64,000 nucleotides of DNA from Acorus gramineus (lineage: Eukaryota > Streptophyta > Magnoliopsida > Acorales > Acoraceae). The stretch covers positions 1,426,001 to 1,490,000 of the forward strand of contig JAUJYN010000034.1 of assembly GCA_030737835.1 (NCBI GenBank). Reading direction: 5' to 3'. Positions within the stretch are counted from its first letter, which is position 1; each line of letters starts with the position of its first letter. The notes under the pieces are model-generated. The model had not been told where the DNA came from, searched no databases, and worked only from the letters and a program-made list of their open reading frames with translations. Made by a program: the position numbers and the translations under genes. Below are positions 15,521 to 64,000 of the stretch, in pieces.

Positions 15521-15544
15521 GACATAATATACAGAACCCGTTAT

Positions 15545-20384: not shown

Positions 20385-20469
20385 CGGGCCAGCTGTCAGA
20401 CGCCGAGCTTCTCGGCAGATCTCGTCGGGCTTCTCGGGCTTCTGAATCACCTTCTCGGGCTTCTCGGGA

Positions 20470-28831: not shown

Positions 28832-28838
28832 TATTTAA
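28832..28838 (+). promoter_or_regulatory. Possible TATA box of the Transposase_28-like gene
   Basis: TATTTAA lies 62 bp before the ATG at 28900, in otherwise unremarkable sequence. Confidence 0.35.
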
Positions 28839-28899
28839 GGGTCGAGAGGGAGGCACTCCTCATCCCATCTTGTTTTTCCTTTTGATCTTTGAAAACTCC

Positions 28900-35155: not shown

Positions 35156-35733
35156 TGGTATGCCCATAATATCGAGGGGAGTTTGTCCACCATTTTCCTT
35201 TGGCTGCGTCAAGGCGCTTTTTGATCCCATCCAAGATGGTGCGGTTGGTGATCTCGGCCTGCCCGTTACCTTAGAGATAACAAGGATTAGAGAACAGATG
35301 TTGTATTCCCAACTCTTCACAAAACTCCCCTTAAAGTAGCGTTGTCGAACTGCTTTCCGTTGTCGGAGATTATAGCATTCGGCACCCCGAACCTGCATAC
35401 AATCTCCTTCCATAGGAAACTTCATACCTCGACATCGTGAATCCTGGCCAGGGCCACGGCTTCCACCCAGTTGGTGTGGCGACCAGAAGGAACTACTTCT
35501 GAGATGGTGCCATGGGCATGGGTCTGACTACATCGAACCCCCATTGAGCAAACGGCCAAGGACTTTGAAGAGTATTCAAATCCCTGGCGGATCGATGGAT
35601 CAGCGGGCCGAATTGCTGACATTTGTCGCGTCTCCTCATGAGATCGAGTGAATCTTTAGCGAGGGTCCTCCAGAAGTAACCAGCGGTCAGTACGCAGTTA
35701 CCCAGGGACCGTGATGTAGTATGGCTCCCACAT
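35156..35733 (-). pseudogene. Integrase fragment of a Tat-type Ty3/gypsy element
   Basis: On the minus strand, in changing frames, pieces of an integrase core are visible. RQMSAIRPADPSIRQG comes first (near 35600), then NWVEAVALARIHDVEV, a CRFGVPNAIISDNGKQFDN block containing the second catalytic Asp (about 35370), and TNRTILDGIKKRLDAAKGKW with the end of the core (about 35210). After LWAY the sequence is replaced by LTR A3. The left part is cut at 35733 by the next LTR. It belongs to an older Tat-like element broken by two chromovirus insertions. Confidence 0.7.
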
Positions 35734-41407: not shown

Positions 41408-41412
41408 ACATT

Positions 41413-42531
41413 TGTCAAACCCTAGGGCGGCCATCCTCGAGACGTGGCAAAATATATAATATCAGTTATCAATACCTGAGGTCAACAAAGACTCCAACAA
41501 CAACATACAAGGTGGGAAGGCAAAGATAAATGATAGCTAACTGAAAAGCGGAAGCATAAAAATAACAATAAGTCTGTAACCAAAACATTATTACAGGCTA
41601 AAGTACACAATAACCGTCTTGTGAGAGCCAAGTCTAGTCCAATCAAATACATCCTATGCAACACGCACGATTAAAAAATACATGACTCTAGGACTGCTGA
41701 CAGCCTCGCACTTGCTAACCGCCAGACACGACGCAAGACCATGCCATAGGGAAGCTCCAGCACCACAGCCAACAACGTCCTTGTGGAAAAACAGTATGCG
41801 AGGGGTGAGCTACGACAAGAAGCCAAGCACCAATACAACAATTGAATGTTAAGGCAATTTCCTTTCAAGGAAAACATGAGTGAAAACCCAACAGATAACT
41901 AGGTCACGCGGCGGCGCGACCACACCTCACCCTCGTTTCTGAGGGAAACTCAAAGGACACTCGGGGAGGAACAAGCTATTAACCATAACACATGGTGTTA
42001 CTGGATAATAGTTTACAAGGAGCCTAACAGCTATGAGATAGAGATACACTAGATACCTCAAGCATTAGACATAACATAGTACAACAAGTCCTTCCGCTAT
42101 GACGTAGAGATACACTACAATACCTCAAGCGTTAGACGTAACATACTCAGAGTATACTCGACGGGTATAAGAGTCACATGACCACGTGACTCCCAACTCA
42201 TCCTCACCCTAGCCCCGGAGGGGTGACCCTAGGGACTTTTGGGATAAAACCTTTTGCTCTACACCCTTCGTCATCCGGTAGCTCTCTCTCGGGTAGCCTC
42301 TTCCTTGTATACTCCCATGATCAGTACATCTGTCGAACGCATCGGTAGTACCTACAGGTGGGAGCCCTCTGTCGTGGTAGTTTGAAAGCCAAGTAGCTTC
42401 AACACGGATCCGACGAAGGGGAGAACAACTCCACGCTCGCAATATCATCTAGTAGCACTCCCACGTAGCCTCCACCTGTCAACCTTCCACGATCGGTACA
42501 TCCGCCAGATGTGTACCGCGATACGCATCGG
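41413..42531 (-). repeat. 5' LTR fragment of the deleted chromovirus
   Basis: It begins (plus orientation) TGTCAAACCCTAGGG at 41413 and matches A4 up to GATACGCATCGG at 42531, where the Tat/Ogre element starts. The remaining part must lie beyond the right edge of that insertion, outside the window. Confidence 0.78.
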
Positions 42532-42789
42532 TGTAGATACCCCATTTTGATCGATCAGAACTGTGAAACACTTATTATTTGTGATATCTTAGTTTGCAGG
42601 TCTAAGCCCGGATGATCTTCCCAGAGCCAGAATAGTCACTTGAGTAGGGAAAGGGAAGAAAAGAAAGCATGAGCGCAACAAGTGATAAGTTTAAAGAAAA
42701 GCTCAAGAGAAGCAGTACTATTGCCCAGAATGGTTAAGCCTCGGGTTGCTGTACAAGACATCTAAAATCTGTTTGGTGATTAAGACAAG

Positions 42790-43035
42790 CGACCACCCAC
42801 CCGTCGTACTGGACGACCTTTCTAAGGACTGTCGACTTCGACGATCTCTGAAAGGATTGTCGAACTGGACAATCTTTCTAAGGATTGTCGACTTCGACGA
42901 TCTTTGGGGGGATTGTCGAACTCGACGATCTTTCTGAGGATCGTCGACTTCGACGATCTCTGAAAGGATTGTCGAACTGGACGATCTTTCTGAGAATTGT
43001 CGACTTCGACGATCTTTGGTGGGATTGTCGACCTC
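42790..43035. repeat. 56-bp tandem array (GTCGAACTGGACGATC...)
   Basis: About four copies of a 56-bp unit made of paired GTCGAAC..GACGATCTTTC and GTCGACTTCGACGATC halves. It lies in U3, upstream of the TATA box. Confidence 0.85.
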
Positions 43036-43213
43036 GACAATGGGATGACGGATCGTCAAAAATACTGGGATAAGTTCAGCTCGGAAAGGACGGCATGGCT
43101 CGATTTTTTTCGCCTCTCCACCGACGTCAGCCACTTCGGGTGAACGTGGGAGCGTCGTGGGGCACTCATGACTTCCCCAAACAGGTGTCAAGAAGGTGGT
43201 GGTCGTTTGGGGC

Positions 43214-43220
43214 TATAAAA
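43214..43220 (+). promoter_or_regulatory. TATA box of the Tat/Ogre LTR
   Basis: GGGGCTATAAAAGGGAGG is a strong TATA context. Transcription would begin near 43245. Confidence 0.75.
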
Positions 43221-44044
43221 GGGAGGTTTTGGAGGAGGAGAGCCATCTTTAACTCATCTTTACCGACCTTTTACTCTCCAAAGTCTCTCCTAGCCACCCC
43301 ACTTGAGACCAGCGACCTTTCACCACTCTCCACCCTCCATTTCCGAGCACCACCACCCCTTACACCAGCAGCCACCCCAAACAACCTCCCACCACCCTCA
43401 TCTACCACCCAACCCCTCCCATTCCTCTCCAAAAGCCACCCATCCGAACCCACCTTGTTCTTTATCACCAACAGCCCTCTCAACACTCTCCACCCTCCGT
43501 TTCCGAGCACCACCACCCCCTACGCCGGCAGCCACTCCAAACAACCACCCACCACACCTCCCTACCCTCACTTCCCTTCCCTTTCCTTTTTTTTTTCTTC
43601 TCTTCTTCTCTTTTGTTACTTAAGAGAACTTGTACAACATATCATTTCCTAAAAGAACTTGTATAAGATTGTAACAAACTTACTAAATCTAATAAACATA
43701 AGTTTAATCAAAGTTGAAAGTGTTGGAATACATCATTGGACTTTTATCAGTTCTTTTGGAAACTATACGCAGCTGGCGGACGACCCTAACTTGGATCGTT
43801 GGTCAGTTGGTCTAGGGACCATTTGAACACTCCCCTTTGCAAGTTTGGGTACCTCCCAAGGACTACTAACCCCTTTTGTTTTATTTTGTTTACTTTATTT
43901 GTTATTTACTGCTTTATATGTTTGTTATTACTCTTTCATATACTGTTTATATGCTGTTTTTTTTTTTTTTTTTTTTTTGTTTTTCTTCGTTCCTTGCTAA
44001 CATAAGCCTCCCACTAATTTTGTTAAATTTTTTTTGGAGTTAAC

Positions 44045-44440
44045 CCTCGACAACCCCCCCTGGCTCGTCGACCTCGACAACCCCCCTTTAACTCGTCGAA
44101 CTCGACAATCCCCCTGTACTCGTCTAACTTGACAATCCCCCTGTACTCGTCTAACTTGACAATCCCCCTGTAACTCGTCAAACCCGACAACCTTCCTCTA
44201 ACTCGTCGAACCCGACAATCCCCCTTTAACTCGTCGAACTCGACAATCCCCCCTGGCTCGTCGAACCCGACAATCCCCCTTTAACTCGTCAAACCCGACA
44301 ACCCCCCTTTTAACTCGCCGAACTCGACAATCCAATCATAGTTTGTCGAACCCGACCATCCACCCATAGTTTGTCAATCTCGACAACTCCCCCGTGGTTC
44401 GTCGAGACCAACAATCCCTTCTAGTTCATCAATCTCCAGT
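44045..44440. repeat. ~27-bp tandem array (AACTCGTCGAACCCGACAATCCCCC)
   Basis: About 14 imperfect copies of a pyrimidine-biased unit lie between poly(A) signal region and LTR end, i.e. in U5. Confidence 0.85.
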
Positions 44441-44806
44441 CTATTGACCAGAAAGAACACCCTTTTTTATCCCATTTGCCAACCTTGCACAAAAAAAAAA
44501 GTATCTTTCTCTCTCTTTGGGTTTGCAGGATCAATCTGAGCTTAAACACCTCAAGGCACGGCCGGCCGTGATCCTTGAGAGGAGAACCCGCATCCCTCGT
44601 TGAAGGCGAGTAATAACAGAAGAAATCTTCTTTTCTTGCTTTTGAGGAAAAGCAAGTGGCGATCACACCGACGTCCCTGGAAGCGGTCGGGCAACCTTGG
44701 ACGATCCATCAAGTGGTGATTCGAAGCGCCGTGTGCGTAACGGAACCAAACTTGAAGGAACCCGGATTCACGACCACGCCGCGTCAAAAATCCAACACCG
44801 ACAGTC

Positions 44807-44826
44807 TGGCGATCACGGTGGGACTC
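44807..44826 (+). promoter_or_regulatory. Primer-binding site of the Tat/Ogre element
   Basis: TGGCGATCACGGTGGGACTC starts three bases after the LTR end. TGGCGA-type sites are usual for Ogre-like elements; the matching tRNA was not checked. Confidence 0.6.
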
Positions 44827-46677: not shown

Positions 46678-48850
46678 ATGGATCCCTTCCCTAGACCTGA
46701 AGGTTCAAGGGTAGACATGGGATATGATTTTTATGAGAACCAAGTGTTTCCCGATGCCAGTATGCCCCATGGGCAAGCCACGCGCAACCAGGAAACCACT
46801 GAGACTTCAGAAAGACCAGCCTGGAGGAGACTCGAGGAAAGAATGGAGGCCATGGGATATCACTCAATTGATGAAATGATGAATGCCTTCGACCACCTCA
46901 ACCGATTGCACTCAGCCTCCCGGAATCCAAATCCCACTACTCTTCAACCCCCTCCTCCTCCACCACAGCCAAGAGTCCAAACCCACCCCCAACCTATTGA
47001 AACCTTGGATGACACTGTCCGAAGGATAGTGTCAGAACTCAACCCGACCTTGCTCCAAACCTCCCACCCGTCCAATTTACGCCAAATTCCCCCCATTGCT
47101 CTCCCACTCGACCTTAAAATCCCCAAGTACCGCAGATATAATGGTCGAGGAGATCCAGATGCTCATTTGACTGCTTTTTATGGACTCACGTCCATTCCTG
47201 GGAGATGAGTCACTTCTAGTATTCCTTTTCCAGAAGTCTCTTGAAGGAGAGGCAGTTCAATGGTATGCGACCCTCCCGGTCGAATGCCTCCATGATTTTT
47301 CTGCTGTGAGCGAGAGGTTTCTCCGGCGTTATGGGTATCAGAGAATGCGCATTCCATCCCTATCAGACCTTACAGCAGAGAAGATGAGGCCGCGTGAAGA
47401 GTTTGAATCTTTTGTGGCACGTTGGCGCATGTTGGTGCACAGGACGGGATTGCAATTGACAGAAAGCCAGGAAATAGACATGATGCTGCAAAATCTCACT
47501 CCAGAGTTGCGAATGAATCTCGCCTATGGTGATTGCTCTACTTATGAAATGCTGATTGATCGCCACAACCGCATTCAGCGTTGTGCCAACACTACCATTG
47601 CTTCACCAGCTGGCAACCAGCGTCCTCCCTTCAAGAAAAACCATGTTCCATCCTCCACGGTAGAAGGGGTCACCCCACAAATCTCAGCGTTCTACCCAAA
47701 TGGATCACCAGCTTCTGGTCGAGGACCGGTAACAAGGCCGTATGCACCTGGACCATCTAGGTATACTCCGCCTCGACCAGTAACCCGTTATCAAGGGATT
47801 GCTCCTCAACAGACGCCGGTGCACCATCCGACACGCCCCACACCAATTTCCTCATTCCCAACCCACCACCCACCTCTCCGCCAACCATTCCAGTATCACC
47901 ACTCAGCTCCCCAAGCCCAACCCGTTCGAGCCTTGCAACCCAATCAAATAACTCCCCGACCAATCCCCGAAAGACAATACACAGCTGTTCCTCCACCCAC
48001 ATCTTACCAGGCTCGAAGGATGGGCAAACGTGATACTTACCCGCCACTGCCAGAGTCCTTGCCCGACATTTTTATGGCACTGATGGAATCCAACAGCATC
48101 ACCTTGCCACCCGAGAGACCCTCACCCCCTGGTGTCGATAGTTCACGCTACTGCCCATACCACCGAATGCATGGTCATGACATCTGTGGTTGCTACACAT
48201 TTCGAGATTTTGTTTATGATCTTCATGAACAAGATCGCATTGATTGGGCACTATTGCGAAATATCATCACTAGGTCCCGCTCGGCCCACCCTGTTCAATC
48301 CTCCACTTCATCTGCACCTCTTGGCATTCATATTGACCCACTTCCTTCCCATACTCAACCGTCTACTTCATCTGGTCCAGTTGTCAACTTCATTGGGACT
48401 GACCCTCCATCCCCCAACCAGTCCAACTCCTCATCACACCTTTGGGCCAACCTTGTCACCCCACCGGCAACACCTGATAGTGGTAAATCTGAATCTGAAG
48501 AGGAACCCATGGAAGAAGACGAGCCAGAGGAGCCAGAAGAAGACCCTGAGGAGGAGGAACCAGAAGAGGACCCGAGGAGGAGGAACCAGAAGAGGACCCT
48601 GAGAGGAGGAACCAGAAGAGGACCCGGAGGAGGAACCAGAAGAGGACCCAGAAGAGGAACCAGAAGAGGACCCAGAGGAGGAACCAGAAGAGGACCCGGA
48701 GGAAGAACCAGAAGAGGACCCGAGGAGGAGGAACCAGAAGAGGACCCGAGGAGGAGGACCAGAAGAACCCTGAGGAGGAGGACCAGAAGAAGACCCCGAA
48801 GAGGAGGAGCCAGAAGAAGACCCTGAGGGGGAAGTATCTGAAGACGAGCT
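46678..48850 (+). pseudogene. gag of the Tat/Ogre-like element
   Basis: The start is ATG at 46678 (MDPFPRPEGSRVDMG). The retrotransposon gag (capsid) domain follows: DPDAHLTAFYGL, then after a frame break near 47190 FLFQKSLEGEAVQWYATLP and SDLTAEKMRPREEFESFVARW. A Pro-rich stretch then leads to a zinc-binding motif C-x2-H-x4-H-x4-C (CPYHRMHGHDICGC, about 48150). The C-terminus is a Glu/Pro/Asp-rich repeat region (48490-48840) in which the register slips, producing an Arg/Gly-rich alternative. Gag forms the virus-like particle. Two frame breaks make it a pseudogene. Confidence 0.82.
48535..48840 (+). repeat. GAGGAGGAACCAGAAGAGGACCC-type coding repeat
   Basis: Short near-identical units encode (E)EEPEEDP in the gag register and RR(G)TRRGP in another. 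Slippage here shifts the frame between gag and the protease part. Confidence 0.8.
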
Positions 48851-48851
48851 C

Positions 48852-51672
48852 ATGGAAGAGCCGGAAGAACTGGCATTTGGTGAAGATGCCCTTGAGCAAG
48901 AACCATCTGATCAGTCCACATTGGCAAGCACAGTTCAAGAACCAGAAGCATCAACCGGAACTGTTGATGGCCCGGTGGGACCGCCACCTATTGTGTTCCT
49001 CGAGAGCGAGCTCGCCCCACCAGCAATGCGTAATCGCCCTCTTCGTATCATGGTGGAGATAGCAGGGATCCCCTTCAGATATACATATATTGACACCGGG
49101 GCAGGAGGAAACATCATGGCATATGGAGTTTATTGCTCATTTGAAGATGTGGAGGACCGTCCTGAACTTGAGCCCTCTAATGAGTTCATAGAAGCATATG
49201 ACGGCACCAGACGACCGGTGGTCGGAACAGTTACGATTCCTTTGATGGTAGGCCCGTTGCACACTGAGGTATATTTTCATGTCGTAAAGCTCGAAGGGGG
49301 CGTCCACAACATAATTCTCGGGAGGGCGTGGCTCAATAATGCCAGAGCAGTTCCATCCACTCGTCATCAATGCCTTCGGTTTCCACTATGGGGAAAGATT
49401 GTCTCCGTATGGGGGGAAAACATCCTTTGGGGGGGACCAGATGAACCAAATTGGACTGTTAATGCGTTAACCGTTGGCTCAGAAGGAGGGATAGAAAGGG
49501 GGATGAAAGAAGAGTCGAAAGAAGAAATACGAGAGGAGGAGCTTGAAGAAGACTCCTTGGACTTTGAGCCATCTGGCTCCCCAACATCAACAGAAGACTC
49601 ATCAGAGGAGCATGGCGCGATCACTTGCTTGACATGTTCCCCTTCCATCACATTCACTCCTCATGAGCTCGCCGAGCCTAGCATACGCACATGCCCCCTT
49701 GTGATCAAAGTAGCCATTGCTGGTAAAATTCTCCGAAATGTCCTCGTGGACACAGGCGCTGGAGTAGACATCATGACCCATTCCACCTACTGCAAGCTTC
49801 GGCGTGGGCTCCCCAAGCTCCAACCATCAGAAACCCTTCTCCACGCATATGACAGCTCAAGCCAATCTTCATGCGGGAGGATCTCTTGTGTTCTAAAGGT
49901 GGGGCCAGTATGTACCTCTGTAGACTGTGAGGTCATGAAGATCGAGTCGCCTCATTCCATGATCCTTGGGAGGCCCTGGCTTGACAATGTCGAAGGTGTC
50001 TCTTCTACGCGTCATCAATGCTTGCGTTTTCCAAGTAATGGGGACATCATCTCGGTATGGGGGGAGGCACGCCGCCATGACTGGTCAAGGTTCTTCAACT
50101 GTCAAATGTGCGAGCTAAATACTGGGCCAAAGAACTGTGCATATCAGCCTCAGGACGATCCTCCACCCCAGATCATACCAGGTGGCATCATCCGTTCAGC
50201 TCCTAGAAGTCGGTTCCCTCCACGAACCCGCCACCAATCCGGAGTCCCATCCGAGCCAGCAGCCTCAGCCCCATCCGGCCACTTTTGTCCTCCTGGCATC
50301 ATTGTCCCAATACTGCAGTTCTCCACACCACCAGGACAGGACGCATCTTCAACAATATGCCCTCTCAAGTTCTCCGACAGACCAATCCAGAAGCAGAAGT
50401 GGAAGAAGGGAGAGCTGGTGATAAGGTGGACCTGCTTGAACAATTGCGCAAAATCCCAGCCAAGATCTCGATATTGGAGCTAATCGAAACTTCAGAACAC
50501 CATCAGGAGGCGATAAGGGCTTTCCTGGAAAAGGTCAAGGTGGATCGCCACATTTCTGCCTTTAATGTGCCAGCTGCGCTAGTTTCTGAAGGATTGGGCC
50601 CTGTGATCTCATTCTGGCCCAAGGAAGTCATCGATGATCCCCTCACCAACATTTCGGCACTTTGCGTCACCGCCTTGGTGGAGAAAACGTTGGTTAGTCG
50701 AATCCTTGTTGATACTGGTGCGGGGGTCAACCTCATGTCCCTCCAGACGTTCCAGCACGTCAATGGTGATATCACTTCACTGGCGGAGTCCGATACGCGA
50801 ATTTTTGCCTATGACAGGAGTGCTCGACAAGTGGTGGGCTTCCGTTCATTTAGCTTGGAGATCGGTCCCTCAAGACCACGTTTGAAGCCTATGTTCTGGA
50901 GATGGACTCTGATTACAACATGATCTTGGGAAGAAAATGGTTGGCGACAATCCGAGGTGTTTCCTCCCCGCTCCACCAATGCCTCAAATTTCCTGTTGGA
51001 GAACAGATCATCACAATAGGTGGGGACGCTGTCAGAGGCATCCGGTATGAAGCCGAAGAAGCAGAGGCTATCACAACAGTGAAAAGCCCTTCCAGGAGAG
51101 AAGGCAAGCAGCCAGTCGTGCACATATCAGAGTTTCCACCCGATTGGGCGCGTGATGGGGCACTACAGGTAAGCACTTTGGGCAAAGGTAAAGCACGCGC
51201 ATCAACTGACAGTAATCCAGGATGGCGGCTCATGGAACAAATGGGTTATCATCGAGGCCAAGGTCTGGGACGGTACAATCAAGGCACCACAGACATCATC
51301 CACAACTTCATATGGCCGGACCACATGGGCATCGGATCACTCACAGTTTATGATGTCTATGATTGGGGACCATTCTATGGCATTGCGGATTGGAGCTTGG
51401 AAGAACATTTTATCCGTAGCACTGGATCAGAACAACCCACATCCAGTCAACTGACTCCCATTGAGAGCCAATCAGAATCCCCCTCTTCAGTTCCACCAGA
51501 GGAAGACATTGATTCTCTGATTGAGACTCTTGACCAGTTATTTTCTGAATCACATGAACAATTGCCCGGCGATTCTCATGAATTGCCAGAATACTATGTT
51601 GAAGACCCGGATTCTGCTGATGAGATGCCTCATTCATGCAGTTCGGGAGCATTGGGGAGCAAGACTCTCTAG
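48852..51672 (+). pseudogene. Protease region with three tandem protease-like units and a G-patch
   Basis: Unit 1 (about 49020-49420) has IDTGAGGNIM and IILGRAWL. Unit 2 (about 49690-50080) has VDTGAGVDIM and MILGRPWL. Unit 3 (about 50680-51030) has VDTGAGVNLM and MILGRKWL. Each is followed by STRHQCLRFP or a close variant (SPLHQCLKFP). All three keep the Asp-Thr-Gly of retropepsins, which act as dimers to mature Gag-Pol. Between units 2 and 3 is a KVDLLEQLRKIPAKISILEL segment. After unit 3 comes a G-patch-like stretch (51220-51340, WRLMEQMGYHRGQGLGRY). Frame breaks near 50350, 50880 and 51650 split it. Confidence 0.78.
51220..51340 (+). other. G-patch-like domain downstream of protease
   Basis: GWRLMEQMGYHRGQGLGRYNQG has the glycine spacing of G-patch domains. 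In other retroelements a G-patch sits next to protease and may bind RNA or RT. Confidence 0.6.
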
Positions 51673-51740
51673 GGTAATTGGAGTAAACTCAACCCTCAAC
51701 CTTGCAAAAGGATGATCCTATTCTTGAGGGTGTCATTCAG

Positions 51741-52191
51741 GTAAGTACTCTCTTCCCATATCTACGGTTCATTTATTTCCTGTCTTTCATTGTATATAGA
51801 TCCTGCGCACTCTAATCTTGCAAAAAAAAAAAAAAAAAAAAAAATCAATTCTGCTTGTACATGAAATTTCCTTGCTTTATTTCTTGCTTTGCTTGCTAAA
51901 AAAAAAAAAAAAAAAAAAATCAATTTCTGCTTGTACATAAAATTTCTTGCTTTACTTCTTGCTTTGCTTGCTAAAAAAAAAAAAAAAAAAAAAAAAATCA
52001 ATTTCTGCTTGTACATAAAATTTCTTGCTTTATTCTTGCTTTGCTTGCTAAAAAAAAAAAAAAAAAAAAAATCAATTCTGCTTGTACATAAATTTCCTTG
52101 CTTTATTTCTTCTTTGCTTGCTAAAAAAAAAAAAAAAAAAAATTTCTCTGCTTATACATAAAATTTCCTTGCTTTATTTCTTCCTTACTTG

Positions 52192-52225
<34 letters not shown>

Positions 52226-52240
52226 AATTTTAAGGAAGGG
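51741..52240 (+). other. Candidate intron between protease and RT, with A-rich tandem array
   Basis: CATTCAG|GTAAGTAC at 51740/51741 is a consensus donor, just after the protease-G-patch frame ends. The interval to RT holds a six-copy ~65-75 bp array (TTCTGCTTGTACATAAAATTTC..., A-runs; 51826-52225) and multiple stops. An acceptor is uncertain (TTTTAAG near 52235). Ogre elements are known to carry an intron at this place. Confidence 0.5.
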
Positions 52241-52249
52241 TGGATCTAA

Positions 52250-53560
52250 AAATGGACAATGTAGAACAACCTAAGACTTTAGGTTCCCTGTTTGAGATAA
52301 AAGATGACGCTTTGGTGGTTTGGCACCCCTCGCTTTTAATTCTGATCTTCTGGACAAACTGCGGAGTTTGGTCGACCCTCCTAAGGCGTCAATGCCCCAT
52401 GTGTCTCAAGGACCTGGCAAGGCTTCACGATTTCAAATCCCTACTCGGATTATCGATGACATCGGGGAACGTATTCACGTAATCCATGGAATAGAACGAT
52501 CCGAGTCAATAGCTGTCATCGAAGAACCTGATTTGGAGGACCTTGGAGATTTCGATGACGGCTTGGGGGTATTTGAGATTTGTGACGATGATGAAGAAGC
52601 AGAGCAAGAAGAGGAGATGTCAAAGGGGTTCGCAGAAAGCCTTCAACACTTTGATGAGCAGACGGCAAGTGAGGAGGAAAGGATGGAGGAGTTGAATCTC
52701 GGGACCGCCACTGATCCTAAGATCATCTTGATCAGTGCGGAACTAAATCCGAGCGAGCGAGAAAGTTTGGAGAAGGTGTTGAGGAGCTATTCGGATGTGT
52801 TCGCCTGGTCTACGAAGACATGCCTGGTCTTGACCCTTCATTGGTTGAGCATAGGCTAGTCCTGGAACCAGACGCCAAACCAATAAAGCAGAAGCTAAGG
52901 CGGCTCCATCCAAAGTTGGCCATGAAGGTGAAGGAGGAAGTAGATAAGCTACACCAAGCAAAGTTTATCAGGGTGGTGCTGTACCCAAAGTGGATAGCCA
53001 ACATTGTCCCGGTAAGCAAGAAAGATGGCAAAGTCCGTGTGTGTGTAGACTTCCGAGATCTCAATCGGGTTTGCCCGAAAGACGATTTCCCTCTTCCACA
53101 CATTGACATTCTTGTTGACAATACCGCGGGACACGAGATGCTGTCCTTTATGGATGGTTTCTCGGGTTATAATCAGATCCGTCTAGCAGAAGAAGATCAG
53201 GAGAAGACATCATTCATCACTCCTTGGGGGACCTACTGCTACGTTGTAATGCCCTTCGGCCTTAAAAATGCCGGGGCAACGTACCAGCGCGCCATGACCT
53301 CGATTTTCCACGACATGATGCACAAATTAATGGAAGTTTACGTGGATGACATCTTGGTCAAATCTAAGACGCGGGAAGGTCATGCAGACACTTGAAAGGG
53401 TTCTACAGAGGTGTAAAAAATTCAGTTTGAAAATGAACCCTAAGAAGTGTAGGTTTGGAGTGTCATCTGGAAAGCTATTGGGATTCATGATAAGTAAGAG
53501 GGGATTGAAGTCGATCCATCTAAAGCAAGAGCGATCGCTCAAATGCCCCCTCCAAAAAAT
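52250..53560 (+). pseudogene. Reverse transcriptase of the Tat/Ogre-like element
   Basis: An acidic N-terminal extension (52320-52815) ends in RSYSDVFAW. After a one-base break near 52815 come the RT blocks KFIRVVLYPKWIANIVPVSK, KVRVCVDFRDLNRVCPKDDF, SFMDGFSGYNQI and MPFGLKNAGATYQR, and the catalytic YVDDILVKS (about 53340). Further breaks near 53390 and 53503 disrupt thumb and connection. The catalytic motif itself is intact. It copies the element's RNA into DNA in the cytoplasmic particle. Confidence 0.85.
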
Positions 53561-54028
53561 TTGAAGGAGCTTAGGGGACTCATCGGTCGGCTGCAGTTTA
53601 TTCGTCGATTCATTTCACAGCATGCCGAACGGTGTAAACCCTTCTACAAGCTGTTAAAAGGAGGGACTGAATTCATTTGGGATGACAAGTGTCAACAAGC
53701 ATTTGATGAACTTAAGAAATACTTACTCAGCCCCCCTGTTCTCTCAGCCCCTGTCCCTGGGCGTCCGCTACTTCTCTACCTGGCGGCCACTGAAGAAGCT
53801 GTTGGCGCGGTGCTCGCACAACACGATGAAGAAGGAAGGAAGGAAAAGGCTATCTATTATTTGAGCAAAACTCTGATTGAATATGAGCAGGCCTACCCAC
53901 TCATGGAAAGGACATGTTTAGCGCTGGTATGGGCCTCTCAGAAATTACGCCACTATTTCCTTGCGCACCAAGTAAAGTATCTGGCAAAGATGGATCCGGT
54001 AAGGTATCTGTTTGAGAAGCATCAGTGA
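53543..54028 (+). pseudogene. First (Ty3-type) RNase H
   Basis: The thumb end (LKELRGLIGRLQFIRRFI) is followed by the RT-associated RNase H: LLLYLAATEEAVGAVLAQHD, AIYYLSKTL, YPLMERTCLALVWA and LRHYFLAH. It ends in a stop after a frame break near 54015, before the register of the next domain. Confidence 0.78.
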
Positions 54029-55075
54029 CTGGTCGGCTAGCTCGATGGCAGGTCCAACTAAATGAGTTTGACATCACGTATGTCACTCAAAAATCCATCA
54101 AGGGACAAGCCATCGCCGACCACCTTGCTCACCTCCCACTGCCGGATTATGAGCCTGTCAGGACGGATTTCCCTGACGAAGAGTTGTTTGCATTAGTTGA
54201 GGAAGATGACCGCAAGACATGGACATTGTATTTTGATGGAGCGGTCAATCAGAAAGGAAGAGGAATTGGAATTGCCTTGCTCTCCCCTGAAGGTGTCATC
54301 ATCCCGCGCGCTTTTCAACTTACTTTTAATGCTACTAACAATATTGCGGAGTATGAAGCATTGATTGCAGGTTTAAAGTCAGCCCTAGCTCTTGGAGTTC
54401 GTCATCTAAAGATTGTTGGAGATTCACTCTTAGTGATTCGCCAAACTTTGAAGAAGTGCCAGACGAGGGACCCGAAACTCAAGCCCTACAGAGAACTGAC
54501 TATTATCCTGTTGCGCCAGTTTCAAGAAGTGATCCACATTTTCACACCTCGAGCCGGCAACATCCTCGCCGATGCCTTGGCCTCGTTGGCCTCCTCACTC
54601 ACCCTCCCGATATCCAAAAAGGCGGAGACTGTCATCGTCCAAAGACTAGAAACTCCGGCCACTGACCTTCGAGACTGCAAGATTCAAGACCTAATGGAGC
54701 AGCAAGAGAAGAAAGATGAGATTCTTAAGTCTGTTGGGATTTCCGCAATAGATTTGGAGGAACCTGATGATGGAAATCCTTGGTTCTTCGACATCAAGAA
54801 CTACCTTGAAGATGGCTCCTTTCCGGAGTACGCCACCAGTGATGATCGAAAAGCTGTTAAAAGAATGGCGACCAAATATTGTCTTCGAGGAGGCATTCTC
54901 TTTCGCATGTCCTTCAATGGAGAGTTGTTGAGATGCTTGGAAGATGAAGAGGCATTCACTATTGTGAAAGAGGCACATTCCGGAGTTTGTGGAGGCCATG
55001 TGAATTCACAGATGCTCGCAAAGAAAGTTCTAAGGATGGGTTACTATTGGCCCACAATGGAGGGGATTGCCACAA
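54025..55075 (+). pseudogene. Second plant-type RNase H and integrase zinc region
   Basis: RLARWQVQLNEFDITYV leads into a second RNase H (54190-54600). The YFDGAVNQKGRGIGIALLSP, NIAEYEALIAGLKSAL, IVGDSLLVIRQTL and GNILADALASLAS motifs retain the four acidic residues. Two RNase H domains are the hallmark of Tat elements. Next come a linker (NPWFFDIKNYL) and the integrase N-terminal zinc finger start (EAHSGVCGGHVNSQMLAKK), which breaks near 55065. Confidence 0.82.
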
Positions 55076-56042
55076 ATTCGTCAAACGGTGTGTTCAGTGC
55101 CAGACCCATGCCAATAAGATCCATGCACCTGCCTCCGCATTACATTCCATGACCTCTCCTTGGCCTTTCTCCATGTGGGCTCTTGACATCATCGGCCCCT
55201 TTAGGGATACAGTTGAAAACACCAGTCAGAAAGCCTTCATCCTCACTGCCACAGAATACTTCACCAAATGGGCCGAGGCTGAGTCGTACATAGTGATCAA
55301 GAGTTCTACTCTTGTTCGCTTCGTTCGTACTCATATCCTCGCACGATTTGGCGCTCCGAAGGTAATCATTACTGACAATGGTCCTCAGTTCATTTCTCAG
55401 GAATTTCAAGACCTCTGCAACAAGCACCACATTGAGCTGCATCACTCCACCCCATATTATCCCCAAGGGAATGGACAAGCGGAGGCTACAAACAAGACTC
55501 TCCTGAAGATCATCAAAAAGACCGTGGAGACGCATAAGGCTACCGATTGGCCGGACAAGCTAGTTGATGCACTTTGGGCTTATCGCACCTCCATCAGGAC
55601 CCCCACAGGTCAGACTCCTTACTCCCTTACTTTTGGGATGGAGGCGGTGGTTCCCTATGAAGTGCTTATCCCGTCTTTGAGAGTGGAGTTGGACAAGGAT
55701 TTACAACCCGAGGATAGGAGGGAAGCGCTCCTTCTACAACTTGAACTATTAGATGAGAAAAGGTTGCGAGCAGCCGAACACGCCCAAATTTACCAAAGGA
55801 GAATGTCCAGAGCCTTCCAGAAAAAGGTAATTGAAAGAAAGTTCCAAGTTGGGGAAATGGTGCTCAAGCAGCTCATGCCTTCTCGACAACCACACCCGAG
55901 AGGAAAACTGCAACCAATTTGGGAAGGACCTTATGTAATCACCCATGCCTATTCCGGGAATGCTTATCGCTTGGTGAACGCCGAAGGGGACGAGGTCTCA
56001 GGTACATGGAATGCACTGTATTTGAAAAAATTCTATGCTTAA
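55060..56042 (+). pseudogene. Integrase core and C-terminus
   Basis: The HHCC finger ends with CVQCQTHANKIH. The catalytic core shows the three acidic positions: WALDIIGPF, ITDNGPQFISQEFQ and YYPQGNGQAEATNK. The region LWAYRTSIRTPTGQTPYSLTFG is typical, and the C-terminal part ends GPYVITHAYSGNAYRL...WNALYLKKFYA. The stop is at 56040-56042. No chromodomain is present, unlike the neighbouring chromovirus. One break at 55065 separates it from the preceding domain; the rest is open. It inserts the DNA copy in the nucleus. Confidence 0.87.
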
Positions 56043-57430
56043 TACTTGATGTTTGAGAAATTTTACCATTACTTACTGTGAATCCTAGTATCTATGCCTG
56101 ATGATATGATTTGATAGCCTTAAGGATAGCATGTGTTTTATATAGACTCATACTCACCGCTCTTACCATTGTCATCACACTTATCCAGTTTAAGACCTGG
56201 TTCACTGATAGATAAAAAGATCGCCCACAACATTAGACTGGGGCAATTTGTAATTGTCATTCTTTTGTTTGTATTTTAACTCGTGTTGCCTATGATCCAT
56301 GAAAATACCTTAGTCTTGGCGCATGTCCCAAAAGAGCTGGCTCTGGCACTGTCGATGCTTCCAAGGAGAAGGTAAAAATAGAAATACCCTCCAAAATAGG
56401 GCAAGTTGGCCATTATAAAAAAAATAATACAAAAAAAAGAGGATAAAGTGGGTATCCAATGTGGGCCTGCATCCTCCACCCTTAAAAAAAAAAAAAAAAA
56501 AAAAGCAGTAAAGAAGAAAGCTGGGGGGACCGAGTGACTTAGGACATGTGCTAGGACTGGGGCAATTTTTTAGTTGGTTCAAGGAGGACATTACTCTCAC
56601 CCCCATTCATTCACTTCCCCCCTTTTTGTGACAAGATATGAATTAAACCAGTTCTTTTGGGTCAAGTGAAATTTTCAGTCTAGAGGTGAGCCACTTCTTA
56701 AACTGCTACCACACACTGCACATGAGTCTACTTAAAACCTTGTTCATCTAAAAGTCGGTCTTTGAATGTTATCCTGGCACATTTATGGAGTTCTCAGTAC
56801 ATTTTGGTAACATGATCAAGCATACAAGAACTTCCAGACTTGGGAACTATCCCCATCGACAAAACCACGCAAGGTATCCTTGATATGGCAAACGGTTGAT
56901 CACCATGAGTCCTTTTAATAACTGGTAAGCATCTCTCATTGCTGGCATCAAGGTCAAGATAGCACCATGCATCATCAGGTTTGTTTCTCCATAACCCATT
57001 ACCCCCAATTTTGTCATTATTTGGGCCCTTGACAAATTAACAAGGAGAAATAAAAAAAAATGATGAGCAGGGGCCCAAACGGAACAGATATGATCATTTG
57101 GTCTAGTCTCTTAAGTTGTTTTGTAGGGCCTAGGAGAAGCAAGAAGGGAACGGACGAATGAACGATCATTAAACAAGCAGACAGAACTTGCGTGGTCCCC
57201 CTAGATGGATATCGATTCAAACAGTTTCCGTATGGATTGTCGATATCTAAACAAAGGCCATCTTGTAATTTTAAAAGGGGAGTATTGAAGTGTGAACATA
57301 TGCTTAATTGAGGGGGTATATCTACTTAGCTCTGTGTTTAATGTTGTTGTACAGGGTCCAGAGGAAAGGAGAACAGAGCAAGAATACAAAAAAAAAAAAA
57401 AAACAGGACTGGACACATACTTCTGGACGA
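56043..57430. other. 3' region of the Tat/Ogre element, no gene
   Basis: Non-coding. Purine runs lie near 56480-56530, and no match to the 5' LTR start TGTAGATACCCC appears. Confidence 0.5.
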
Positions 57431-57433
57431 ATC

Positions 57434-57695
57434 TTGGTGTGAACGGCGACTTAGACAATCCAGATGGCGAACGTCGATGGGGACGAACCTGGCGGTGAAC
57501 GTCGACTAAGACAACCCTCGTGGAACGTCGACAGGGACAAGCCTGGCTGTGAACGTCGACTGAGACAATTCTGCGTGGAACGTCAACAAAGACAACTCTG
57601 CGTGGAACGTCGACTTGGACAACCTTGCTTCTAACGTCAATGGGGACGATCCTGTTGATAAACGTCGACAAAGACAACCCCATTGGAGGATCGTC
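57434..57695. repeat. ~27-bp tandem array (GAACGTCGACTGAGACAACC...)
   Basis: About nine imperfect copies of GAACGTCGACnnnGACAAnC spaced 26-28 bp, in the 3' region. The core resembles the GTCGAAC...GACAA core of the two LTR arrays. Confidence 0.8.
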
Positions 57696-57744
57696 GAGCC
57701 ATTTTTCAGCAACAACTTTACCTATCAAAATGTTCCCTGGTCAC

Positions 57745-58185
57745 CCTGCAAATTCAAATCACCTGTCTATCCACATTTCATACACACATTCACAAAGCCA
57801 AAAAAAAAAAAAGAGAAAAGAGAGAGAGCATATGGCCCCTGCTATTCCTTATTTCAAACACTTGGACCAGTCCATATCTCTAAACTATCAGTCAAAATCA
57901 CCTGTCTATCCACATTCCATACACACATTCACAAAGCCAAAAAAAAACAGAGAGAGAAAGAGAGAGAGCATATGGCCCCTGCTATTCCTTATTTCAAACA
58001 CTTGGACCAGTCCATTCTATATCTCTAAACTATCAGTCAAAATCACCTGTATATCCACATTCCATACACACATTCACAAAGCCAAAAAAAAAGAGAAAAG
58101 AGAGAGAGCATATGGCCCCTGCTATTCACCATTTCAAACACATGGACCAGTCCATTCTATATCTCTAAACTATCAGCCAAAATCA
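57745..58185. repeat. Three ~140-bp tandem repeats
   Basis: CACCTGT(C/A)TATCCACATTCC...GCATATGGCCCCTGCTATTC...CACTTGGACCAGTCC occurs three times with over 90% similarity, each holding an A-run followed by GAGAGAGA. Confidence 0.85.
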
Positions 58186-58260
58186 TTCACCCACTAGAAA
58201 GAGTAAGTCTGGGATGAGGTACGAGTTATAGCCCAAAGGAATCCAAAGAAGGAAGGAGAA

Positions 58261-61200
58261 TCAAACCTGTTGTTGGGAGTCACCACCACGAACCGAAGGA
58301 GGATGAGGAGATTGTCCTGGGGCGGTCTCGCCCCCTTGAAAATCCCCTCTCGCTGGAGAAGGTCTCGAAGTGGCGGATCCTTCAATCATCGAGGGAAGAC
58401 GAGGGGGGGCCATTGAGTAGGAACGTGATGCACCGCTTCGAAAGGACACCGAGCCTGACAGTCCTGACATCTCGAGAAATTTAAGATCATCCTCTGTAAA
58501 TACCCCTGCGGAGTTTATCTTCATCCTCACAGTAGCCACAATAGACCGATACAAGCTCAACTCTTTGTTCCTCCTCTCGACCCGCTGCTGGGAAAGCCGG
58601 AGATCGTCTTCCATCTTGTGCTTATTTTCTTCTGCTCTCTGCCTATCCTCCTCCGCCCTCTGTTGGAAGCGTCTGAGATCCTCCTCCGACCTCCGCCGGT
58701 CCTCCTCCGCTCTCTGTCTACCATTTCTCTCACTCTCCAAAGAAGACTGAAGGGTATGGATGAACTCTCGCTGCAAACCTGGGTCGGATGCACCTGAGGA
58801 TGCCTCGAAGTCTGCTACTCTGGATTGCAAGTTGTCCCTCTCACGGGTCAAAGCAAGGACGTCATTCCTTGTCCTAAGAATCTCCCTCTGAAACTGCGCT
58901 GCCTCATTCTCTTGTCGGTCCCTAGCCTCTACAAGCTGCATCCTAACATCCATCAACTCGTTTTGAGCCTCTTGCAGTTGACCCAACAGTACAAGTTCTT
59001 GACCCGAAGATGATGGTAACGATCCAGTAACTCGAGCTTGCTCTGCTCCCTCAAGGTGTGCCTCAAGATCTCCTATTCTCTGCAAGAGTCGCTGTTTCTC
59101 CACCTGGAGTTCACTCACCAATGAAGTTTGAACTGCAAGCTCCTCGCTCACAGTCTTAAGTCTCCGAGCAACGGCAGATCGCCCGCCCTGATTAAAGAGG
59201 ATTTGAATAATCATTCTTTATGAGAAGTATTATGAAAAGAGCAAGTTTTGAAGGAAACAAACATGCCTACCTCTATGTCAGGCATCAGTTCTTCGAATAT
59301 CCCAAGATCCTTTGCATGCTCCTTGCGATACCATTCCATGTAGTCATCACTACTGTCAAGATCCGCCGGTGGTCTAACTGGGTGGCCTTTCTCTTCCCAT
59401 AACTTCAAGTGTTCAGAAAAGTCATCCTCTGGAAAAAAGGCTCTTGGAATCCCTCGTAGAGTCAGACGAGGAGAAGTCGGAAGAGGACCAGGGATCCATT
59501 GGTGAAAGCCTAGCTGGCGTGCTACGCGACTAGCACAGTGGTAGAGAACCTCATTAAAGAAAACAAGCCATGTATCGCAGACTAGTTCATCAGGAATCTC
59601 CTCCACGTATGGCCTCCATGTCATCTGAAATAGTAAAAAGCGCATGGGACACTAAGCTGAAAGAATGCACCTCTCAAGGAAAGTTTGATGAAGCAAGAGA
59701 ACGTACCTTCTCCTCAGTCAGCAAGAGAAAATCCTCACGGAGAAGAGCTAGAGTCCTACCATAGTTTGCTTCTGGCGCAACCCACCGCATGGCACGAGGG
59801 AAAGATGGGTCACAAAGATCCATTGATTGTGGACGAGCAATAGCAATATGCTCGTACCCAAAGAGCTGTTCACCAAAAAGGGGACGATGAGAAAAATCAA
59901 TTACAAGTCCAAAGGTAAGCAAATGCAAGCATCGAGCAAGTTATACCTGAAGAAATGCAATGAACCCACCGAGACTCTTGTCCTTTGCCCGCTGCTTCTT
60001 TCTTGATAACTCAGCAAATAGATGAGCCAACATCGCTGCTCCCCAAGCATAGTCTCCCATTTGCACCAAATCCTCCATAAGGGTCAAAAAGTGTAAAGAA
60101 ACTCGGTCCGAGGAATTACAGAAGAGCACGCGCCCAAAGAAAAATAAATAAAAGGCCCTCAGTTCTTTTTGAGCTCGCACAGGATCGGCTACTGTCTTCC
60201 TTTGTTTCGTCATGAGGTCTCGGGCCACAAATTGCGCCTCCGTCTCTTTTGGCCGACGCAAGAGGAACCCCCCCAAGCCATATTGAGCAGCGAGACGCCC
60301 TAAAGGAATACGGGTGACAGTTTTCCCTCCATCAATGAAATCCCAAGCACCGACTAACTCCTGAAATTTTCGGCGGTAATTTCCAAGTGTCTTCCCTGTC
60401 ACCGGGCGACCCGTGACTGGAAGACCAGTGATCCGGAGGACATCTTCTAAAGTAGGCATCACTGCGCCAGTCGGAAGGATGAAGGTGCAGCTCCTTGGAT
60501 CCCACCTCTCGCCTAAAGCCTCTATATATCCTCGGTCCACACTAAAAGGCTCAATCTGGAAGAAGGCCCGGAATCTGGCCCCGTCTACAAGCCCTTGCTC
60601 AACAGGCGCTAGGTCCTTATACCAGTTTCGCACGCCATGCCAAAGAGAACATGATCTTAGCGGCCGCTGCAAGACAAAGGTAAGTAAAAAATTAAAAATG
60701 ATAATCCCCTACTAATATTTAATTTCTCCTTTCAGGGGTAATAAAAAAAATGGGGAGGGAGAATCATGTTTACCAAGGCACGACGATAGGCACCCGCCAC
60801 TTCCTCCTCATCGTCGCCCTCGCCGTCACCCCCCGCCTCCAAATCAAGCATGGCAACCCGTTCATCAGCCCCTCCAGCTTCATTAGGCTCATCAACCCCT
60901 GTGTTCGCACCCTCAGACTCGTCCGAGTCCGAACCACCCTCCGCAGCGTCTTGCCCAAAGCCACCCACACCCGCGACAACGCCCGCAAACACATCAATGC
61001 TTACGTTGCCCCCCTCGACCTCATCTATCTTTGTGCTTTCGTCTGTGGATCTGTTAGTACCTATATTATCACCAGATTCTGCTGCAGTCGACTCATCCCA
61101 TGATATCTCCTCCTCAGACCCATTAGTCTCCATATTCACCCTCGCCGCGACAATCCCCGCACTCACCGCTCCCGCCTCCACCCCTGACACTCCTCTCGTT

Positions 61201-61580
61201 GCCACATCATCGACAACCCCCGAGACTCCCACTAGGTGCACGCCCGCATTACTCTCAGCCTCCATGCCCGCCCCCGCTTCGGGTATAACCGCTGCCCTCA
61301 TCTCCCTTTTCCCCGCGTCCGCACCCGTCACCCCCATGCGTGCGCCTGCTGCCCCCGATGTTTCGCCGCCCTCCGCAACCACTGTGTCGCCTCCTACTAC
61401 TGCCTCCCCCATCACCGTCATCAGCCTTGTTTCCACCACCGCCGTCATAATGGTCTCAGGGTCCCTCTCGAGCATTTCACCAAACACCTCTCGTGCACCT
61501 TCCGTTCCTTCTTCTCCAACACCACCCCGGCCCCCACCGCTGCTGCCCATAACCTCCGGCGTGGCTGAACTTGCTTCCAT
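58261..61580 (-). CDS. Antisense five-exon plant mobile domain (PMD) protein gene in the Tat/Ogre element
   Basis: Exons on the minus strand are 61580-60774, 60666-59947, 59865-59707, 59624-59271 and 59187-58261. Introns of 107, 81, 82 and 83 bp all have GT...AG and phase 0, with no stop in the joined frame (about 988 residues). Exon 1 is a low-complexity Gly/Val/Glu-rich leader. Exons 2-4 form the plant mobile domain (SLWHGVRNWYKDL, FILPTGAVMPTLEDVLRITG, LPVTGRPVTG, LRAFYLFFFGRVLF, LVQMGDYAWGAAMLAHL, RAMRWVAPEANYG, MTWRPYVEE, RQLGFHQWIPG). Exon 5 is a long coiled coil with EEDRRR repeats and a Ser/Pro-rich tail. PMD proteins occur in plant transposons and as host silencing factors; the function here is unknown. 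ATG at 61580 is the first candidate; the frame is open further upstream to the LTR insertion at 61643, so the true start may be lost. Confidence 0.75.
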
Positions 61581-62039
61581 GATCCCTGCCACCACACCCC
61601 TCACCTTCGGAACGTCAAGGGTCGCCTTCGGGTCATCATTGGTGTTATATATGTGTCACTTTTAACCTGTTGGTAACCGTTAGAGCGCCCTGGCGGTTTT
61701 TAAAATTTTTAGGGTTTTCGATCGGAACCGCTTATTTTCAGACTGTTAGCTATCGTCTGAGCTAGAGGACTCCGATTGGAAATCTGACTGCATATTTGGT
61801 GTCCTGGCGCCATTTCTGACCTCCCACGAAAATTTCATTGAATTCCGGCATCGTTTGCAAAAATTTTCCAGTTCCGGGGCGTATCCGGGTTTTTAAGTCG
61901 CGCTCTACTTAAAAGAAATCAAAAATCACCTCGTCACTATTCATCGTCTCTCCCGTCGAGATTTCTCTCTCCCCTCCTCCGTTTTTCTTCCGTTCAAGCC
62001 CCCTAGACCCCTCGAAATCGAAAACCCAAAGCACGGGAA

Positions 62040-62064
62040 GTGTAGATCGGGTCCCGATCTACAC
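62040..62064. promoter_or_regulatory. Perfect 25-nt palindrome in LTR B2 leader
   Basis: Same 12+1+12 palindrome as 10006-10030, with the central base fitting either strand. Conserved between copies while nearby leader sequence differs. Confidence 0.6.
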
Positions 62065-62230
62065 ACCGGTGTCTTCAAATCCGAATTCCGACGACTTTAG
62101 CCTCCCCGACCTCCCCTCTCTCTCCTCTGTTTTGGCCCATATTGGTGGTGGAGCTAGATCGGGGCGTGAGAAGGCTTTTGGGAAGGGTTTCGGCGCGTGG
62201 AGAGCGTCCGGACTTCGCTCCCTCCCCTCG

Positions 62231-63342
62231 GTAAGCCTTCTTTCCCTCCTTTTTCTTGCTTAGATGAATGGTAGGGAGGGGTTTTTGTGATTGGGGGTGG
62301 TTGGCGGCTGTGGGGGTCGTCGGAGGGTGGTCGGAGGCGGTTGGAGGTGGTCGGGGCAGTGGGAGGGGTGGTTGGAGGTGCTCGGCAGGTGGGGACGCTG
62401 TCCCGGGCAGCAGGCATGCGGCGGCAGCAGCCCAGGCCGCGCGTAGGCTGGGCGCGTGCAGGGATGCGCGCGTGCGCGCGCGGGCGTGCGTGCGCGCGGC
62501 AGGCGCGCGGGCGTGCGCGGGTCGGGGGCTGGCAGTCGGGGTCGTGCTGATGTGCCGGTTGGAGGTGCTGGCAGGGCGGACTGGCGGGCTGGTGGCCTCG
62601 GGCAGCTTGGGCACGAAGTGCTGGTCGCGCTGGTCTGGGCGCGAGGAGGTGGTGGCCACGGTGCTGTGCGCGCGCGAGGAGGTGCTGGCCGAGGTGCTAG
62701 GGCGCGCGGAGGTGCTGGCCGAGTTGCTGGACGCGCGGGGTGCGCGCGGAGGCGCGCGGAGGTGCTGCCGGAGTTGCTGGACGCGCGAGGTGCGCGCGGA
62801 GGCGCGCGGAGGTGCTGCTGGACGCGCGAGGTGCGCGCGGAGGTGCTGCCGGAGGTGCTGGACGCGCGAGGTGCGCGCGGAGGGGTGGCGGAGGTGCGCG
62901 CGGGGTGCGCGCGGGGCGAGGAGGCGTGCGCGAGGCGTGCGCGGGTCGCGGCAAGGCTGGGATGGTGTGCGCGGGGGCGAGGCGCCGCGCGCGGGGGCGT
63001 GCGGGGTGCTCGCGGGCCAGCGCACGGCGTGCGGGGCGCGTGCGGGCTGCCGCGGCTGGGCTCGGTGGACGCGCGGGGCCCCGGGCGGTGCGCGGAGTGC
63101 GTGGGCTGAGGCGCGGCGGTGCACCCGGGTGGTTGCCGAGGCCGTGCGGGCGGTTGCCGAGGCCGCGGGTGCTTGCCGAGGCCGCGGGTGGTTGCCGGAA
63201 GGGGTGCTGAATGTTGTTTGGGGATGTTGTGTATTTAATTGCGGGTGTTGTGTATTTTTGGGATAATTGTGGATTTATTCTAACCAGTTAATACCCTGTC
63301 TTGCAGATCTTGACGGGCGGTCGCACGACGACCCCGATTCTG
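62231..63342 (+). other. Candidate leader intron and 36-nt micro-exon in LTR B2
   Basis: Donor CCCTCG|GTAAGCC, acceptor CTTGCAG|ATCTTG at 63306, micro-exon 63307-63342, second donor CTG|GTGAGTGGG. The intron contains a GCGCGG-rich block (GGACGCGCGAGGTGCGCGCGG-type words repeated between 62690 and 62900). Confidence 0.55.
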
Positions 63343-64000
63343 GTGAGTGGGACAATCCAACCCAGTAGAGAGGCGTTGTACGCACTTGGGGCGTATACCG
63401 ACCTCTCCTGGGGCGTCATGGATAAATATTAACCTGCAATAATATGTAATCCATGCTTGTATGATTTATGTGTAGAATGCATGTTACCCTAGGCTTTTCT
63501 GTTAGGGACTTGCACCCTTAGGATATGCGTATGAGCCATGCAGCATGTCCCCTGTTTACATGCTAGGAAACCCGGCCTATGCATGCGTCCTACTAGTTTT
63601 ATTTATTAAATTAAATGCTGGTATCTGTTAGATCGCATGCCTTAGGATAATATTATAGGGAGGAGCCTTGCGAGGTCAACGCTGAGACCCGTGTTAGGGT
63701 ACTCCGTGTTCCTTGTTTGGTTGTCGGGATGTCCTGTATCGGGACCTCAGGCTGCCCTCCCAAGGTTTCTAGTCCCAATAATATTATAAGTAATATGATT
63801 AGTATGATTATTAGCATGAGTAGTGAATATTATAGGGGAGGGACCTTGCGAGGACAGCGGTGAGACCCGTGTTAGGGTACTCCGTGTTCCTTGTTTGGTT
63901 GTCGGGGTATCCTATAACGGGAACTCACGCCGCCCTCCCGAGTTTCTTTCCCCCAGTGATATTCCAACACTGCTTTTGATTGTACTGTTTCCCCGCATCG

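Follow-up and report, generated by a model that had tools for sequence, protein, structure and literature searches.

A 64,000-nt stretch of the Acorus gramineus genome (contig JAUJYN010000034.1, positions 1,426,001 to 1,490,000; hereafter the window, numbered from its first letter) carries on its minus strand a gene of five exons (58261–61580), which encodes a protein of 988 amino acids (aa) with a plant mobile domain (PMD). The gene lies antisense behind the gag-pol region of a retrotransposon whose domain layout is that of a Tat/Ogre-type Ty3/Gypsy element (Table 1). All exon lengths are divisible by 3. The four introns (107, 81, 82 and 83 bp in the order of transcription) run from GT to AG in phase 0, each contains an in-frame stop codon, and their A+T content of 59–70% lies above that of the coding sequence. 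After splicing, the frame runs through 988 codons without a stop. In a scan for spliced open reading frames (ORFs) with up to four phase-0 introns, carried out in overlapping 3.9-kb stretches on both strands of the window, the longest spliced ORF at the PMD locus reached 3039 nt, measured from the stop codon upstream of the ATG, compared with a window median of 588 nt. The best spliced ORF elsewhere in the window, located in gag-pol, has 1920 nt, and 15 base shuffles of the PMD region yielded at most 669 nt. The original prediction of a clean five-exon antisense PMD gene with a stop-free joined frame and four phase-0 GT-AG introns of 81–107 bp is thereby confirmed.

Upstream of the ATG the frame stays open to position 61655 and reaches into an unrelated repeat starting at 61643, so that the true N-terminus may be cut. 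This repeat begins 62 bp upstream of the ATG and has probably severed the PMD copy from its promoter. At the other end, a sixth exon following CAG/GTTTGA was considered and not adopted, as visual comparison puts the end of the relative P0123 in roughly this position.

The Pfam profile PMD (PF10536) matches residues 306–662, encoded by exons 2 to 4, with an E-value of 2.3e-45 and 155.7 bits, compared with a gathering cut-off of 34.9 bits. The match takes in profile positions 7–347 of 347, which places the protein in the PMD family. The product of exon 1 is acidic and of low complexity, and that of exon 5 has the look of a coiled coil. Queried with the PMD part and limited to about 8000 scored candidates, a database search returned at least 14 relatives. 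Among the matches listed, Colocasia esculenta supplied seven and Acorus calamus two (55% and 50% identical, with 80% and 63% of the query covered), while Melastoma, Hibiscus cannabinus and H. sabdariffa each supplied a single one. None of the PMD matches listed is named MAIN or MAIL1, most being called hypothetical or plant mobile domain protein. With the whole protein as query and a similar limit of about 8000 candidates, at least one relative, from Prunus, was found. The coiled coil of exon 5 continues in the Acorus relative P0123 (32% identity over 244 aa, E 2e-20), and no significant similarity to exon 5 was detected in the Colocasia relative P0130. Two scans of viral contigs gave 1 and 11 pattern matches, none of them a relative, and a library of viral structures gave one match (E 1.3e-3, probability 1.00, TM 0.24/0.12).

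The relatives also bear on the exon borders. Among 12 aligned relatives, the border of exons 2 and 3 is gapless in 10 and that of exons 3 and 4 in 8. P0129 stops one residue beyond the border of exons 2 and 3, and P0127 diverges directly after it; both ends resemble ORFs that may run on into the intron, P0129 alternatively being simply cut. The border of exons 1 and 2 is less well supported, because a BLAST comparison of exon 1 with the relative P0122 showed no similarity. At columns shared by at least 90% of the 12 relatives, seven of which are from Colocasia esculenta so that the columns lean to this species, the PMD copy keeps the family residue in 54 out of 58 cases and P0122 in 50 out of 58.

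Table 1. Coordinates of the PMD gene, its exons and the surrounding features, with the evidence for each
Feature	Position	Strand	Evidence
Five-exon gene, 988-aa protein	58261..61580	-	spliced frame; Pfam PMD E 2.3e-45; coiled-coil similarity to P0123
Exon 1, 807 nt, acidic N-terminal part of low complexity, position of start codon uncertain	60774..61580	-	frame open upstream to 61655; no BLAST similarity to P0122
Exon 2, 720 nt, N-terminal PMD part	59947..60666	-	spliced frame; weak DUF1985 match (E 0.0056, below Pfam cut-off)
Exon 3, 159 nt, PMD	59707..59865	-	spliced frame; most aligned relatives gapless over both borders
Exon 4, 354 nt, C-terminal PMD	59271..59624	-	spliced frame; Pfam match
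Exon 5, 927 nt including stop, coiled coil and proline/serine-rich tail	58261..59187	-	spliced frame; P0123 similarity
Putative 5' long terminal repeat (LTR), TG...CA, about 2.27 kb	42532..44803	+	placed by inspection; starts at cut edge of neighbouring repeat
28-bp tandem array 1 in putative 5' LTR, core GTCGANNNNGAC	42803..43038	.	repeat and motif search
28-bp tandem array 2 in putative 5' LTR, core GTCGANNNNGAC, flanks differ from array 1	44046..44420	.	repeat and motif search
Coding part for gag, protease and G-patch, at least 5 frame breaks	46679..51672	+	Pfam; break count
Spacer between protease/G-patch and reverse transcriptase, A-rich tandem repeats, non-coding, 635 bp	51673..52307	+	ORF list; repeat search
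Coding part for reverse transcriptase, RNase H, RVT_3 (second RNase H-like) and integrase, at least 6 frame breaks	52308..56042	+	Pfam; break count
27-bp tandem array 3 in integrase-PMD spacer, core GTCGANNNNGAC	57439..57680	.	repeat and motif search; unit alignment
Three tandem copies of a 140-bp unit, shortly after the PMD stop codon	57756..58185	.	repeat search
Unrelated, sharply bounded repeat starting TGTTATATATG; inverted second copy at 10428-8170; unlike putative 5' LTR	61643..64000	+	self-comparison

On the plus strand, Pfam detects in series gag (below the cut-off), protease, G-patch, reverse transcriptase, RNase H, a second RNase H-like domain and integrase. The presence of RVT_1, RT_RNaseH_2, RVT_3 and rve in this order, that is, with a dual RNase H, supports the predicted assignment to Tat/Ogre. 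So do the dimensions, with a putative 5' LTR of about 2.27 kb and, if the PMD gene is internal, an internal region of at least 16.8 kb up to 61642. The sequence TGGCGATCACGG at 44807, behind the putative 5' LTR, is what we take to be a primer-binding-site-like element. The LTR itself seems to have inserted at 42532 into a member (41412–42532) of a repeat family that occurs in both orientations and is also seen at 2607–4383, 10428–11353, 32009–33875 and 35733–38186. The A-rich spacer ahead of the reverse transcriptase is a possible candidate for an Ogre-type gag-pol intron. Ahead of the G-patch, about three tandem retropepsin-like segments with DTGAG motifs (48774–50923, plus strand), only one of which was scored by Pfam, possibly represent a triplicated protease region. 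The G-patch (50854–51672, plus strand, E 9e-9) lies between protease and reverse transcriptase; this domain is known in some plant Gypsy elements (PMC9289625). The repeat at 61643 is GC-rich (71% GC in 62001–63000), at least 2.3 kb long and contains internal tandem repeats.

The two LTR arrays and the array in the spacer between integrase and PMD gene share a nearly palindromic core. Per kb, the LTR contains 11.9 and the spacer 5.4 instances of the hexamer YGTCGA or its complement; the remaining stretches that were counted have 0.3–0.8, and the short spacer between gag and reverse transcriptase has none. For GTCGANNNNGAC, 30 strand-wise matches (21 sites) were found in the 64 kb, all within the three arrays, and 20 shuffles of the whole window gave a mean of 1.3 and a maximum of 5; since the pattern was picked from the arrays themselves, this enrichment is partly circular. 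Similarity of the arrays was therefore assessed by aligning their unit consensuses against shuffled units, a 6-mer test on base shuffles being set aside as too easy because such shuffles break up repeats. Arrays 1 and 2 align with P 0.0003, arrays 1 and 3 with P 0.016 and arrays 2 and 3 with P 0.046; against the columns common to arrays 1 and 2, array 3 gives P 0.016. Taken alone, the longest run common to the arrays is not significant against shuffled units (P 0.21 and 0.23).

Structure models of two relatives appear to match the fold of the DNA-binding region of VANC21, with 11–15% identity in the structural alignments, and suggest that PMD and this region are probably members of one superfamily. 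A phmmer search with the PMD core against the Protein Data Bank did not return VANC21 at E<=1. The DUF1985 match within the PMD protein reaches 17.1 bits compared with a Pfam cut-off of 35.1, and the neighbouring pol is of Ty3/Gypsy type and not that of a VANDAL DNA transposon; in both respects the case differs from VANC proteins. Weak cross-matches in Pfam scans link PMD (PF10536), DUF1985 (PF09331) and DUF7745 (PF24924), which may form one superfamily of proteins borne by plant transposable elements (TEs). VANC proteins are reported to bind short motifs in tandem repeats within non-coding parts of their own TE and to cause loss of methylation (PMC5735166, PMC10398659). In Arabidopsis VANDAL21, the carrier is a DNA transposon and the VANC21 motif is YAGTATTAY, in contrast to the LTR element described here. 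In the accessible parts of the literature searched, no printed link between PMD and VANC was found beyond their mention as separate examples of TE counter-silencing (PMC8616336).

While the PMD frame is intact, gag-pol requires a minimum of 11 breaks in 8.7 kb, in agreement with the roughly ten originally counted. Between 9 and 11 of these 11 are frame shifts and not stops, the number varying with the penalty given to a shift. With 11 breaks placed randomly in proportion to length, the PMD coding sequence would be spared altogether with a probability of 0.04, and the contrast is for this reason only suggestive of selection acting on the PMD gene itself. It is a real possibility, although one we lean against, that the contrast arose by an assembly accident or by chance under equal selection, a view compatible with any functional interpretation. 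The value of 0.04 leaves room for it; the predominance of frame shifts is what indel errors would give, and such errors before polishing are described for published Acorus PacBio assemblies, which may not include that of the window (PMC10282084). However, the PMD coding sequence has no shortage of homopolymers of at least 5 nt (5.1 per kb compared with 4.0 and 3.5), and homopolymer errors should therefore have hit the PMD gene too. What holds of the predicted selection of its own, on behalf of element or host, is a sign of constraint as an element gene, since 54 of the 58 conserved columns keep the family residue.

The alternative of a recent capture, offered in the original prediction, is not supported by the distribution of the protein. 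Its layout of PMD plus coiled coil recurs in another Acorus protein and its PMD part in seven Colocasia proteins, and the clades PMD-A1 and PMD-A2 are described as exclusively Gypsy-encoded across angiosperms (PMC5418596). Likewise, assembly by shuffling of symmetrical exons is disfavoured because half of the introns, numbers 2 and 3, interrupt the central part of the PMD. Capture or shuffling would also be unnecessary, given that the introns lie in antisense orientation relative to the genomic RNA: unseen there by the splicing machinery, they would not be spliced out during retrotransposition but be copied along.

The closest study on PMD-bearing Ogre/Tat elements is reportedly that of Steinbauerova et al. 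2011. In such elements PMD forms an extra ORF, as it does here; its orientation, exon structure and a coiled coil were not found described in the accessible parts of the literature searched, which yielded no paper on Ogre in Acorus. PMD is reported in 57% of Ogre elements (PMC6317226), and PMD-C, as distinct from PMD-A1 and PMD-A2, includes the host proteins MAIN and MAIL1 (PMC5418596). These share the PMD family and the connection with silencing biology but, unlike the gene described here, are stand-alone host genes that promote silencing. Antisense position between pol and 3' LTR is shared with Retand TRP28, Grande gene23, RIRE2 and PvRetro13, some of whose proteins are nuclear (Grande) or contain an SMC domain (PMC11963269, PMC7264820). 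Their domain is Transposase_28 or another, not PMD, and the available accounts describe them as ORFs, not as multi-exon genes. Every recently active Retand element is reported to have antisense ORFs in the interval from pol to the 3' LTR, where Transposase_28 is present in 97% of clusters and tandem arrays occur in about half of the elements (PMC11963269); in the 988-aa protein, Pfam detects no Transposase_28 match at E 0.01. A further parallel, named in PMC11963269, is HBZ of human T-cell leukaemia virus type 1 (HTLV-1). It is an antisense gene of a reverse-transcribing element with a nuclear product, although protein and host are unrelated. Thus the class of antisense genes is already known, and attention to antisense and spliced transcripts has been urged in a review (PMC7264820); the five-exon antisense PMD gene with a coiled coil in Acorus is new to it.

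Taken together, we tentatively favour, as a view that comes close to being evenly balanced, that the gene is an accessory antisense gene of an Acorus Ogre/Tat element whose protein acts in a VANC-like manner against silencing by way of the element's own arrays. The gene would sit antisense between integrase and an unseen 3' LTR and be spliced from five exons, whose introns, invisible in the genomic RNA, would outlast each round of retrotransposition. Its protein, with a PMD of the VANC21 DNA-binding fold and a coiled coil through which it would form a dimer, would enter the nucleus and bind the short near-symmetrical motif YGTCGANNNNGACR repeated in the LTR and 3' spacer of its own element. 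Once bound, it would strip or block silencing marks and thus make transcription of the element possible. The near-palindromic core of the arrays would suit a protein dimerising by its coiled coil. Their common core would also be accounted for if the arrays had all arisen from a single ancestral one.

The protein might instead disarm silencing without binding element DNA, by mimicking or titrating the host PMD complex of MAIN/MAIL1 and the phosphatase PP7L. PP7L is a partner of host PMD-C proteins in the silencing of TEs (PMC7156037), and TE-borne PMDs have been proposed in a review as a counter-silencing strategy (PMC8616336). We nevertheless regard such interference as unlikely, as it leaves both the DNA-binding fold match and the motif arrays unused, and as the published tree assigns PMD-A and PMD-C to different clades (PMC5418596).

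An anti-silencing function for the element presupposes that the gene is internal to it, which we infer from its surroundings. The original prediction had placed the start of the gene 2.2 kb past integrase; in fact it is the stop codon that lies there, the ATG being 5.5 kb past. It was right that no LTR intervenes between integrase and gene, whereas the 3' LTR that should follow is not seen up to 64000. A comparison with 42532–44810 as query revealed no 3' LTR resembling the putative 5' LTR on either strand of 56042–64000, matches being confined to the minisatellite core and to low-complexity or pyrimidine-rich tracts. As a 3' LTR start, 57.0–57.7 kb was rejected because its similarity consists of the array core only. 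The repeat at 61643 was likewise rejected: it is unlike the putative 5' LTR, has by eye no purine tract ahead of it, and in self-comparison its copy at 10428–8170 has no PMD-gene match beside it. The unseen 3' LTR, together with a PMD frame free of breaks next to at least 11 in gag-pol, would also fit an unrelated PMD locus or domesticated host gene that happens to adjoin a broken Ogre element. This appears rather improbable, given that the 2.2-kb spacer contains tandem repeats as in Tat/Retand elements (PMC11963269), that its array has the LTR core in common (P 0.016), that 7 of the 14 matches listed come from Colocasia esculenta alone, as expected of a multi-copy element, and that the published PMD-A clades are exclusively Gypsy-encoded (PMC5418596). 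Finally, it is about as improbable that antisense transcription matters and not the protein, with a minus-strand RNA pairing with the genomic RNA to tune silencing or replication, as has been considered for the antisense ORFs that LTR retrotransposons carry (PMC7264820). A non-coding RNA would hardly be expected to have 988 open codons, clean splice junctions and the family residue at 54 of 58 conserved columns.

Extended beyond this locus, the proposal of a VANC-like accessory protein becomes somewhat more doubtful, yet it stays a possibility worth stating: Ogre PMDs in general would be VANC-type anti-silencing proteins that bind DNA sequence-specifically, each element family targeting the rapidly evolving arrays of its own LTR and spacer. 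MAIN/MAIL1 would descend from these proteins or share their ancestry. If true, DNA and LTR transposons, two unrelated classes, would evade silencing with one superfamily (PMD/DUF1985/DUF7745). PMD is central to a plant silencing pathway through MAIN and MAIL1 and is present in many retrotransposons; in a review it is labelled a domain of unknown function (PMC8616336). A fold in common with VANC21, which has been crystallised with its target DNA, would make PMD function testable as DNA binding, with the arrays of the element as a concrete candidate target. Such targeting could also explain why minisatellites are retained in LTRs and spacers. Moreover, the antisense layout shows a route by which a retrotransposon can retain an intron-bearing gene.

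Elsewhere in the window, 28798–30829 on the plus strand holds an ORF that matches Transposase_28 weakly (E 7e-5, under the cut-off) and DUF1985 not at all, with further ORFs after it. An inverted piece of this region, 66% identical, lies at 2–531 within 2–763 on the minus strand; both are probably remains of Retand-type antisense genes. On the minus strand, 14172–20684 resembles a long interspersed nuclear element, with RVT_1, zf-RVT and RNase H-like parts split into several ORFs, and contains a 177-bp direct repeat (98.9% identical) at 17678–18028. A host gene of the bHLH14/MYC type is located at 23253–24796 on the minus strand; one piece of an exon aligns with Acorus calamus at 94% identity, with 86% of the query covered.
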